Source: Candidatus Poribacteria bacterium
GTDB taxonomy: Bacteria > Poribacteria > WGA-4E > JAJDTR01
Length of the DNA: 64,000 bases
Direction of reading: 5' to 3'
Assembly: GCA_028820655.1 (NCBI GenBank)
Contig: JAPPIK010000056.1
Coordinates: 89,880-153,879, forward strand
The notes below the pieces were generated by a model. That model was not told where the DNA came from. It did no database searches and saw only the letters and a list, made by a program, of their open reading frames with translations. A program made the position numbers and the translations under genes. Of this stretch, positions 45,762 through 56,037 are shown piece after piece (the stretch's first letter is position 1; every line of letters starts with the position of its first letter).

Positions 45762-48095
45762 TTAGTCGAGTCTACACATTGCCGACTCAATGTCGGCTTT
45801 GAGTCTTTTATTACCGGCCCGTTCCGCGAGTTTTAATGCGGTGTCGTAGTCTATGAGAGCATCACGATAATCCTTCAATTGAGCTTTAACCCATGCCTTA
45901 GCGGCCCAAGCCTCAGCGAAATCTGGCTTGCGTAGTATTTCCTCGTCAAGATCTGCTATAACAGCACTATATGGTCCGAATTTAGCCATTTTTACAATCC
46001 CTCTTTTCCCAGAGGAGATTTCGGCACCAGCTTGTTCAAGACGCATCGCGGTGTCGTAATCTTTGATACTGTCTAAGTATTGACCTGAGATTATCTTGGC
46101 AAATCCGCGGTTAACCAAAGCGTCGGCATAATTCGGTTTATTTCGTATTGCTTCGTCATAGTCATTGATTGCATCGGCATATTGCTCCCGGTAAACTCTG
46201 ACGTTACCACGGCTATAATAAGCTTCGGCATGATCCGGTTTACATCGTATTGCTTTGTCATAGTCATTGATTGCATCGGCATATTGCTCCCGGTAAACTC
46301 TGACGTTACCACGGTTACAATAAGCTGCGGCATAATCCGGTCTGAGGCGTATCGCGGTATTGTAGTCATTGATTGCACTGGCATATTGCTTGAGAAAAAC
46401 CTTTGCAATGCCACGGCTACAATAAGCTGCGGCATAATCCGGTCTGAGGCGTATCGCGGTATTGTAGTCATTGATTGCACTGGCATATTGCTTGAGAAAA
46501 ACCTTTGCAATGCCACGGCTACAATAAGCTGCGGCATAATCCGGTCTGAGGCGTATCGCGGTATTGTAATCTTCAGTGGCAGAAGCGATTTGCCCCAATT
46601 TAGTTTTTGCCATACCCCGTTTCTGGTAGAATAAAGCATCGCGCGGTTTGAATCGGATAGCGGTGTCATAGTTTTTGATGGCGTTAGCGTACTCACCTAA
46701 CTGAGACTTCGCGAGTCCTTGATTATAGTAGGTTTCGGCGTATTCTAGATTGGGGGGCATCGTATAATTTGGTTCGAGTCGGGCGACAGCGTCGAAATCG
46801 GTGATGGCAGCAGCATATTGCTTTAACTCAACTTTTGCCATCCCACGATGGTAGTAGGTTGAAACATAGCTTGGTTTAAGTCGTATCGCGTTGTCGTAGT
46901 CTTCAATGGCAGCCGTGTATTGGCCCCTCTCAAATTTCGCCTTGCCTCTCCCAATTAGAGCTTCTGCATAATCTGGTTTTAGTAGAATAGCCAGGTCGTA
47001 ATCCTTGATGGCTTCGGAGTGCTGTCCAGACAAGGCGTTCGCCATCCCTCGATTTCCGTAGATGGTGGCATCCTCGGGTTTGAGTCGCATCGCTGCGTCA
47101 TAGTCTTTGATGGCATCGGCGTATTGTTCAATTTTAACCTTTGCGAACCCTCGATCAAGGTAGATTTCGGCATCATCCGGTCTGAGCAGAATCGCGGCGT
47201 CGTAATCTGCTACTGCATCGGCGTATTGTCTTGCTTTTTCCTTTGCACGCGCCCGACTCACGTAAATCTCGGCGTTATTCGGTTCGACTTGAATAGCGGC
47301 ATCGTAGTCCTTAATGGCTTCGTTGTATTGTCCTAACTCAACCTTCGCCAATCCCCTAGCGGCGAACGCTGCAGAATAAACCGATTTAAGCTCTATATCT
47401 AGTTTGAGTTGAATGGCTGTATTGTAGTCCTTCATGGCTTCGGCATATTGCCCCAACTCAACCTTCACCAAACCCCGTGCGGCATACGCCTCAGAATAAT
47501 CCGGTTTGAGCTCTATTGCTGTGTCGTAATCTGCGATCGCGTCAGAATAGTGTCCCAAGCCCACCTTAGCCTTGCCGCGACCGGCGTATGCCTCAGGATA
47601 ATCGAGTTGGAGCCGGAGCGCAATCTCAAAGGCTACTATGGCATCCTGATGTAGACCAAGCGCGGACTTGACAATGCCCCTTATAAGGTAGGTTTCAGCA
47701 GTTGTTGCTTGTCCCTTCTTCGCGAAAGGTTTCGATATACCCGATAACGGTTTCGCCGTTCCCATCTGATCGATAAGGCCCTCAAGGTAGTTTGAAGGCA
47801 CGGCGAAATTGAGGTTCTGTCCATCTTTAACCTGTGCTACGGCGACGCCTATGACTCTGCCCTTGTCATTGAGCACAGGCCCACCACTGTTACCGGATGA
47901 AATCGGCGCGGTGAGCTGGAATAACTTTCGCGTGTCTAGCTGACGAATTGCGCTGATAAGCCCATGCGAGAACGTTCCCTCTAAAAAACCCTTCGGATTG
48001 CCAACAACATACACAGTATCTCCGACAGCGACAGCATCGCTATCGGCAAGAGGCAGCGACCGTACTTGAGCATCTGACACTTGTACAATCGCCAA
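45762..48095 (-). CDS. Trypsin-like (S1C) protease with a long TPR array, C-terminal fragment of a frameshifted gene
   Basis: 777 residues in the main reading frame. Residues 1-115 complete a trypsin-like domain: Asp in the frame just before residue 1 (DRDLAIVQV), then VYVVGNPKGFLEGTFSHGLISAI and the Ser nucleophile in TAPISSGNSGGPVLNDKG. From about residue 130 to 770 there are roughly 18 tetratricopeptide repeats of 34 residues, several near identical. The N-terminus with the signal peptide and His lies in the next ORF, in another frame. If joined, the product would be an exported protease with a TPR stalk of about 880 residues. The paralogue downstream of 48519 has the same layout. Confidence 0.75.
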   Translation of the reverse strand: MAIVQVSDAQVRSLPLADSDAVAVGDTVYVVGNPKGFLEGTFSHGLISAIRQLDTRKLFQLTAPISSGNSGGPVLNDKGRVIGVAVAQVKDGQNLNFAVPSNYLEGLIDQMGTAKPLSGISKPFAKKGQATTAETYLIRGIVKSALGLHQDAIVAFEIALRLQLDYPEAYAGRGKAKVGLGHYSDAIADYDTAIELKPDYSEAYAARGLVKVELGQYAEAMKDYNTAIQLKLDIELKSVYSAAFAARGLAKVELGQYNEAIKDYDAAIQVEPNNAEIYVSRARAKEKARQYADAVADYDAAILLRPDDAEIYLDRGFAKVKIEQYADAIKDYDAAMRLKPEDATIYGNRGMANALSGQHSEAIKDYDLAILLKPDYAEALIGRGKAKFERGQYTAAIEDYDNAIRLKPSYVSTYYHRGMAKVELKQYAAAITDFDAVARLEPNYTMPPNLEYAETYYNQGLAKSQLGEYANAIKNYDTAIRFKPRDALFYQKRGMAKTKLGQIASATEDYNTAIRLRPDYAAAYCSRGIAKVFLKQYASAINDYNTAIRLRPDYAAAYCSRGIAKVFLKQYASAINDYNTAIRLRPDYAAAYCNRGNVRVYREQYADAINDYDKAIRCKPDHAEAYYSRGNVRVYREQYADAINDYDEAIRNKPNYADALVNRGFAKIISGQYLDSIKDYDTAMRLEQAGAEISSGKRGIVKMAKFGPYSAVIADLDEEILRKPDFAEAWAAKAWVKAQLKDYRDALIDYDTALKLAERAGNKRLKADIESAMCRLD
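46157..46567. repeat. 102-bp tandem repeats inside the TPR array
   Basis: From 46318 to 46567 a 102-bp unit (one 34-residue TPR) is repeated two and a half times with no visible difference; ATAAGCTGCGGCATAATCCG recurs at 46320, 46422 and 46524. A second pair, starting CATAGTCATTGATTGCATCG at 46157 and 46259, has the same period. These are recent duplications and a hot spot for copy-number change or assembly collapse. Confidence 0.85.
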
Positions 48096-48151
48096 ATCAC
48101 GATCTTCATCAATCGCTGTTAAACCTTCAATGGAAAATACCGTGTCCTGTC

Positions 48152-48406
48152 CTACGCGCTTTGCAGTGCCGCGCGCCGCCCCCCTATCACGTGGAAGTTA
48201 GTCGCTATTTGGTTCGGTTGCACAAAGAATCCGCTCCCGACACCTAGGGGTTGCCCGTTCGTATCTTCCATGACAAGCAGCACCGTTGAATCTAACGCCT
48301 TTTTGGCAATTTCTTGTGGGGTCAGGACATTTGCTGCAACAATCTGGCAGAATAGGAAAAGCACCAAATATACAAAACACAGGGATGATTTAATCTTTCG
48401 TTCCAT
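48152..48406 (-). pseudogene. N-terminal fragment of the frameshifted trypsin-TPR gene
   Basis: 84 residues with AAGGAG before the ATG. Signal peptide (SSLCFVYLVLFLFCQIVAA), then LTPQEIAKKALDSTVLLVMEDTNGQPLGVGSGFF and the catalytic His in ATNFHVIGG. The frame then leaves at a G6 run (minus strand, 48179-48184). Seven Gs would give HVIGGAARGTAKRVGQDTVFSIEGLTAIDEDRDLAIVQV, matching the intact paralogue (HVVEGAARGYAKLIGQ) and joining the 777-residue ORF. So a single missing base separates the pieces. Confidence 0.75.
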
Positions 48407-54961: not shown

Positions 54962-55002
54962 TGTTACTTTTATTCCCTATTGACACTTTAATCGCGTCGG
55001 AA

Positions 55003-56037
55003 TTACTCTACTATCTCGAAATCGAGGACTCTGATTTCCACTTTTGTATGAGGAGCCATAGATTCGACGCGTGTGGTCAGTTTTTGAACGCTAGTATCGA
55101 CCTCACTTATGACCCGCTTTGCCAACCCCGCAGGTATTTGATCACTGAGATGCACAACGTCTACGTCAATCGGGTCCGCTTGCTCGTCGTAGAAAATCAC
55201 AAAACAGTAAACATTCCTTACGTTTTCGCGGAGTCGGTTTCTCAGGGAAAAGCTATATTCGCCGATTTGCATTGTGCCATATGTCCAAGTCAGTCGGTCG
55301 CCGATTACCCCTTGCACGCTTTTGCCACCGAGTCCAGCGACGATGGAAGGTCGTGATTTGGTTTGCGCTGCTCTTGAAAGTGGCTTTGGCTCGCTTATTT
55401 GTGCCATCAACGTGGCGAGATAATTTGACGGAACTGCAAAATTGAGATTCTGTCCTTCACGGAAGGTTGCGACTGATACCCCAATCACTTTACCTTGACC
55501 ATTTAGGACAGGACCTCCACTGCTCCCAGGAGAAATTGGCGCTGTAAGCTGCAATACCTTGTCTGTTCCAACGGTTCGAACGCTGCTGATAATGCCCTGC
55601 GAGAACGTTCCTTCCAGACCGTGCGGGTTACCCACGGCATAAACGGTCTCGCCCACAAGAACTGTATCGCTATCGCCTAGGGTAACCGCAGGTACGCCCA
55701 ATGCCGATACTCTTAGCATAACTAGATCTCGTCTCGCGTCAATTGCGGTAATACCCTCAATGTCGCGTTTTGTTCTCTGGCCAATCAACTTTGCATAACC
55801 CCTTGCGGCGCCTTCAACAACATGGAGATTGGTCGCAACTTGATTAGGTTTTACAAAGAATCCACTTCCCAATCCAAGTGGCTGACCATTGGCATCTTCC
55901 ATAACCAAGAGTACCGTGGAGGCGAAGGCTTTTTGAGCAATCTGCTGAGGCGTTTGGGCGTTTGCCGAAGTCATCACACAGCACAGATTAAGAACGAGAA
56001 ATCCTAAACTCAGAGATGAATTTTTCTTGTGTTTCAT
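55003..56037 (-). CDS. Exported trypsin-like (S1C) protease without TPRs
   Basis: 344 residues. Signal peptide (LSLGFLVLNLCCVMTSANA) and LTPQEIA-like TPQQIAQKAFASTVLLVMEDANGQPLGLGSGFF. Triad: His in ATNLHVVEG, Asp in RRDLVMLRV, Ser in TAPISPGSSGGPVLNGQG. The trypsin domain ends at NLNFAVPSNYLATLM; instead of TPRs it has a 125-residue beta-rich tail (LTWTYGTMQIGEYSFSLRNRLRENVRNVYCFVIFYDEQ) resembling an FxLYD/NEAT-like beta-sandwich. It is the only intact member of the family in this island, and probably periplasmic or secreted. Confidence 0.85.
   Translation of the reverse strand: MKHKKNSSLSLGFLVLNLCCVMTSANAQTPQQIAQKAFASTVLLVMEDANGQPLGLGSGFFVKPNQVATNLHVVEGAARGYAKLIGQRTKRDIEGITAIDARRDLVMLRVSALGVPAVTLGDSDTVLVGETVYAVGNPHGLEGTFSQGIISSVRTVGTDKVLQLTAPISPGSSGGPVLNGQGKVIGVSVATFREGQNLNFAVPSNYLATLMAQISEPKPLSRAAQTKSRPSIVAGLGGKSVQGVIGDRLTWTYGTMQIGEYSFSLRNRLRENVRNVYCFVIFYDEQADPIDVDVVHLSDQIPAGLAKRVISEVDTSVQKLTTRVESMAPHTKVEIRVLDFEIVE

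Follow-up and report, generated by a model that had tools for sequence, protein, structure and literature searches.

The stretch between obgE and rpmA-rplU in this genome, a 5.88-Mb draft in 61 contigs (95% complete), carries on its minus strand three homologous protease genes, here A, B and C, and one relic (45762-56037). It raises the question of whether these proteases, two of which continue into long TPR arrays, form an unusual exported system directed at a host, or are ordinary members of a wider family, and whether they still work. We favour, with a probability of about 0.7, the reading that A, B and C are ordinary representatives of an exported, HtrA-like protease family that lacks PDZ domains and has expanded in Poribacteria, the TPR members of this genome having probably been disabled recently and C being probably active. 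The features discussed are listed in Table 1; the window is the whole stretch of 64,000 nucleotides that was analysed.

Table 1. Protease genes, their parts and their neighbours; positions refer to the window unless another locus is named.
Feature	Position	Strand	Description
obgE	42726-44027	-	context; opposite edge of the variable segment
161-aa gene	44355-44840		unknown; overlaps the TIR gene
ThsB-type TIR gene	44834-45379	-	ThsB_TIR, E 1e-19; overlaps the 161-aa gene
Gene A, whole	45762-48406	-	two frames as sequenced
A, 3' part	45762-48182	-	second frame; Asp (codon from 48098), Ser (GNSGGP, codon from 47888), 18 TPR units
A, four 102-bp TPR units	46159-46568	-	90% matches
A, one-base frame shift	48174-48187	-	run of six G; homologs single-frame here
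A, 5' part	48179-48406	-	first frame; signal peptide, TPQEIA motif, GSGFF, catalytic His (48191-48193)
Gene B, whole	48519-50830	-	two frames as sequenced
B, 3' part	48519-49571	-	second frame; about ten TPR units
B, one-base frame shift	49564-49579	-	inside a TPR
B, 5' part	49565-50830	-	signal peptide, full triad, about six TPRs; 421 aa as sequenced
DUF2971 gene	50923-51615	-	PADLOC candidate PDC-S31; adjoins B
SIMPL-domain gene	52171-53019	-	context
Relic	53090-53313	-	fourth protease domain; two frames, in-frame TAG, altered catalytic motif
Gene C	55003-56037	-	intact, 344 aa; signal peptide, protease and a tail without fold assignment
rpmA	56711-56962	-	context; one edge of the variable segment
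rplU	56964-57317		beside rpmA
DUF2971 beside C-type protease	L056 7273-7896		another genome
DUF2971 beside C-type protease	L064 2590-3288		another genome
DUF2971 beside C-type protease	L168 10169-10811		another genome

All three genes match Pfam Trypsin_2 (E 1e-18 to 6e-29), the His, Asp and Ser of an S1C-type triad are invariant in an alignment of 12 family sequences, and the nearest solved structures are HtrA proteases (for example 1l1j, E 1.5e-32). The likeness to HtrA, DegP and DegQ lies in this domain and its triad. Those proteases, on the other hand, carry PDZ domains, whereas none is found among the Pfam matches of A, B and C, which have a TPR or other tail in its place; their scores against the NCBIfam Do-family models are far below the curated cut-offs. 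The initial annotation, which described three genes and a relic sharing a signal peptide start and an S1C triad, is thus borne out for the minus strand.

All three genes begin with signal-peptide-like N-termini (A, MERKIKSSLCFVYLVLFLFCQIVAAN; B, MEHKVKSLLSFVSLVFLLFCKTLPAND; C, MKHKKNSSLSLGFLVLNLCCVMTSANAQ), as do 91 of 99 relative rows, a set partly redundant between collections. The calls come from a simple rule on a basic start, a hydrophobic stretch and an AxA-like cleavage site rather than from SignalP. The sequences thereby support Sec-type export across the inner membrane, in agreement with the earlier view of an exported, non-cytoplasmic family. A lipoprotein was considered and rejected at the level of sequence: a conserved Cys closes the hydrophobic stretch, but the preceding F, L or C misfits a standard lipobox.

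The tails differ between the genes. The initial annotation had counted 14 to 18 TPRs in two of them; we find 18 in A and about 15 in B, counted over two frames, so that the number stands, but neither gene is one open frame. The tail of C, described there as beta-rich, remains without a Pfam hit at a threshold as loose as E=3, and it is strand-rich in a low-confidence model only (pLDDT 38), a fold model too poor to use. For the TPR tails, the model of an intact 707-aa relative (PCPOR2b, L055; mean pLDDT 82) presents a protease followed by a TPR superhelix matching that of O-GlcNAc transferase (1w3b, E 3e-21). The fold of the TPR part is the same in both proteins; the transferase has a glycosyltransferase domain where the poribacterial family has an exported protease instead.

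Mechanistically, a Sec-type signal peptide would send an S1C/HtrA-type protease across the inner membrane, with an OGT-like TPR superhelix of the TPR-tailed members occupying the position that PDZ holds in HtrA proteases. We infer both the role of the tail and the location of the protein after export: the TPRs most likely bring in substrates or partners for the protease, or hold it in an envelope complex. The arrays would lengthen through duplication of the 102-bp unit. In A, a 77-nt stretch is identical in adjacent TPR units, which we take as a sign of recent unit duplication.

Whether A and B can perform such a role depends on how their frame shifts are read. The first 76 codons of A encode the signal peptide and His in a different frame from Asp, Ser and the TPRs, so a downstream product would have neither export signal nor catalytic His; the shift that parts His from Asp and Ser would disable the gene. 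In B, the shift would truncate the TPR array, and the shortened protease may still be made. If the TPR-containing serine protease family is defined by Trypsin_2 and a downstream TPR array on one polypeptide, A, B and the intact relatives agree with it in domain content, with A split and B cut short as sequenced.

The long frames past both breaks are still free of stops (344 and 777 aa), so the breaks appear recent. The same open frames, together with the low dN/dS of the A-B pair and the fact that each shift is a single base beside a short G or C run, would also fit genes that are intact and functional, the shifts having arisen in the sequencing or assembly of a draft that is probably metagenome-derived. 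We regard this as rather unlikely. A coding-frame scan of the window detected the break of B and no other split gene (the 5' piece of A is too short to register). A second scan, which also took in about 105 kb of the genome's other loci, flagged B and a third TPR locus, and the remaining abutting calls, apart from one in L022, looked like ordinary gene junctions; no further single-base shift was recognised over this whole span. The third TPR member of this subfamily, on contig C61 (L016 7009-9498), combines three protease domains with four TPRs and would be disabled by an in-frame TAG near 8572. Its domains 1 and 2 read GNSGAP instead of GSSGGP, and domain 2 has Arg instead of the catalytic His. 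In L022 (25-2734), a short tandem duplication near 1100 interrupts a thioredoxin-like/TPR/protease-like gene. Since the third TPR member has its TAG and the L022 gene its breaking duplication, real decay does occur in this genome, and it is the better reading of the shifts in A and B than assembly error.

Programmed ribosomal frameshifting could in principle join the halves of each gene, given that a -1 shift is needed in both A and B and that a run of six G lies at the site in A. However, the homologs are single-frame and the site in B is implausible as a slippery sequence. For B this ruled the mechanism out, and for the two genes together we consider it extremely improbable.

Real decay also agrees with the contrast between members of the family. 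In this genome, the TPR members are broken in 3 of 3 cases and the others in 0 of 3, a small sample in which the open, TPR-less members are C, a 603-aa gene on contig C22 and a 1165-aa gene on contig C56. The TPR members are thus probably being lost, and C, intact and TPR-less, is probably active. The relic is truly dead: besides its two frames and TAG, GSSGGP has become GISSCP. The decay seen by the initial annotation is therefore plain here, and local duplication, which it had also proposed, can apply to A and B at most.

These two genes are each other's closest relatives in the window (69% identity between the proteases), and the tree places them together, although weakly (94/30). By a simple Nei-Gojobori count, their protease domains differ by a dS of about 1.6 and a dN of 0.22, so the duplication is old and both copies were long under purifying selection. 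C, by contrast, stands apart in the tree and pairs with an ortholog from a genome of another family, G004 (100/97). Within its clade there are also bins assigned to Planctomycetota, Nitrospirota, Myxococcota, Acidobacteriota and others, groundwater MAGs included. Because this ortholog lies between rpmA and obgE in a different family too, and the clade spans several non-poribacterial phyla, C belongs to an old lineage, one with orthologs in other genomes, and is not a recent local copy of A or B.

The layout of the site points the same way. In G004 the C ortholog is followed by DUF2971. In G001, the sole congener, neither is present, and the site contains nothing beyond a SIMPL gene and two small genes, HicB-like and HigA-like (names of these two judged by eye); the SIMPL gene is thus found between rpmA and obgE in both congeners, also where the proteases are absent. 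The segment is therefore simply variable across genomes, the C-DUF2971 pair is old at this site, and A and B are additions. A unique island interrupting a ribosomal operon was rejected as first framed, obgE being present in 0 of 29 relatives' rpmA flanks of about 1.5 kb. The variable segment also includes a 391-aa gene (53387-54562) and a 187-aa gene (56124-56687), both on the minus strand and without significant Pfam match. A fragment at 54761-54935, apparently a remnant, has 78% identity to the region of the congener's HigA-like gene at the same locus (L164 7945-8119).

The neighbours of the proteases could suggest a defence island, with the proteases as effectors alongside the nearby ThsB-like TIR gene and the DUF2971 gene (PDC-S31) beside B. 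In three other Poribacteria genomes, with differing surroundings, DUF2971 stands directly 3' of a C-type protease (Table 1). Nevertheless, this pairing is limited to few C-type orthologs, TIR lies beside no locus searched, and the signal peptides would take the proteases out of the cytoplasm. In PADLOC they best match the protease portion of another fusion, RT-Protease, and no ThsA-like match, as Thoeris would have, was found among ten proteins scanned around the TIR gene. A defence function of the proteases is, in our view, highly unlikely.

Having placed the locus within its genome, we consider how widespread the family is. A protease match was obtained in all 58 relatives of the order, with up to 27 per genome and weakly in a few families. 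With a strict threshold, the family is present in 62 of the 85 genomes of the phylum; among these 85, it is absent from family f3, from two genera of family f4 and from nearly all other orders. Many of the 99 relative rows carry 2 to 19 TPRs, and within that set TPR tails occur in Poribacteria only. The closest relatives in a named collection are almost all metagenome bins of 'Candidatus Poribacteria', which places the organism in that phylum. Intact ones (PCPOR2b L055, 707 aa; L081, a 777-aa frame) have a signal peptide, a protease about 60% identical and 14 TPRs, and, unlike A and B, one open frame; in PCPOR2b, rpmA lies on a separate contig from the protease gene.

The same order of domains, a trypsin-like domain and then TPRs, is found in cyanobacterial proteins named in RefSeq as 'tetratricopeptide repeat-containing serine protease family protein', such as those of Nostoc sp. 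UHCC 0302 (WP_341531444.1) and Acaryochloris (WP_235112820.1). The Nostoc protein has a signal-peptide-like N-terminus and 7 TPRs. Compared with A and B, these proteins belong to another phylum, have fewer TPRs and share 25-28% identity over the aligned span; the tblastn similarity is significant and comes partly through the TPRs. They are plasmid-encoded, and their hosts are free-living. The initial annotation had held exported protease-TPR fusions to be unusual, and the search of other genomes intended as a check of that rarity recovers them across the order and in cyanobacteria. As free-living cyanobacteria have the same domain order, the architecture is already known and is not tied to hosts. 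A literature search, limited to the library consulted, returned no paper on a protease-TPR fusion in Poribacteria.

These observations bear directly on the proposal that the proteases act at the sponge surface, where they would be secreted, bind host proteins through the TPR stalk and help the symbiont to evade digestion, by analogy with eukaryote-like repeat proteins. The attribution to a sponge- or host-associated source fits Poribacteria, a phylum known for sponge symbionts. TPRs are its most frequent repeat domains, and host roles have been suggested for its repeat proteins generally (Kamke et al. 2014, PMC3909097); the main text of that paper mentions neither protease fusions nor proteases. 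The export signals and the concentration of the family in some families of the phylum, with absence from others, would also suit such a function. Against it stand the free-living cyanobacteria with the same architecture, the extension of the C-type clade to groundwater and other non-poribacterial MAGs, and the state of the TPR members, which are broken here; none was found in the congener. We judge sponge-surface action unlikely for the family, and an active host-surface role of A and B in this genome is doubtful because both genes are broken as sequenced.

A broader scenario appears less likely still: sponge-associated Poribacteria might keep a large, fast-changing repertoire of secreted proteases, each TPR stalk gaining or losing length through unit duplication so as to bind varying host proteins, with frame shifts switching members off and total loss of TPR members marking lineages of changed host or lifestyle. 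On the reading that we prefer, of an ordinary and expanded protease family, the presence of an exported protease-TPR fusion alone is no pointer to host contact, since they are common in Poribacteria and are also known from cyanobacteria that live freely. The family is instead a useful marker for whether TPR proteases track host association within the phylum, owing to its expansion and to the interruption of all three TPR members of this genome.

The family members matched most strongly in the congener correspond to the TPR-less genes on C56 and C22. At L017 (6053-7864), an intact 603-aa exported protease of the family has a C-terminus that, by eye, resembles a Por-secretion sorting domain.
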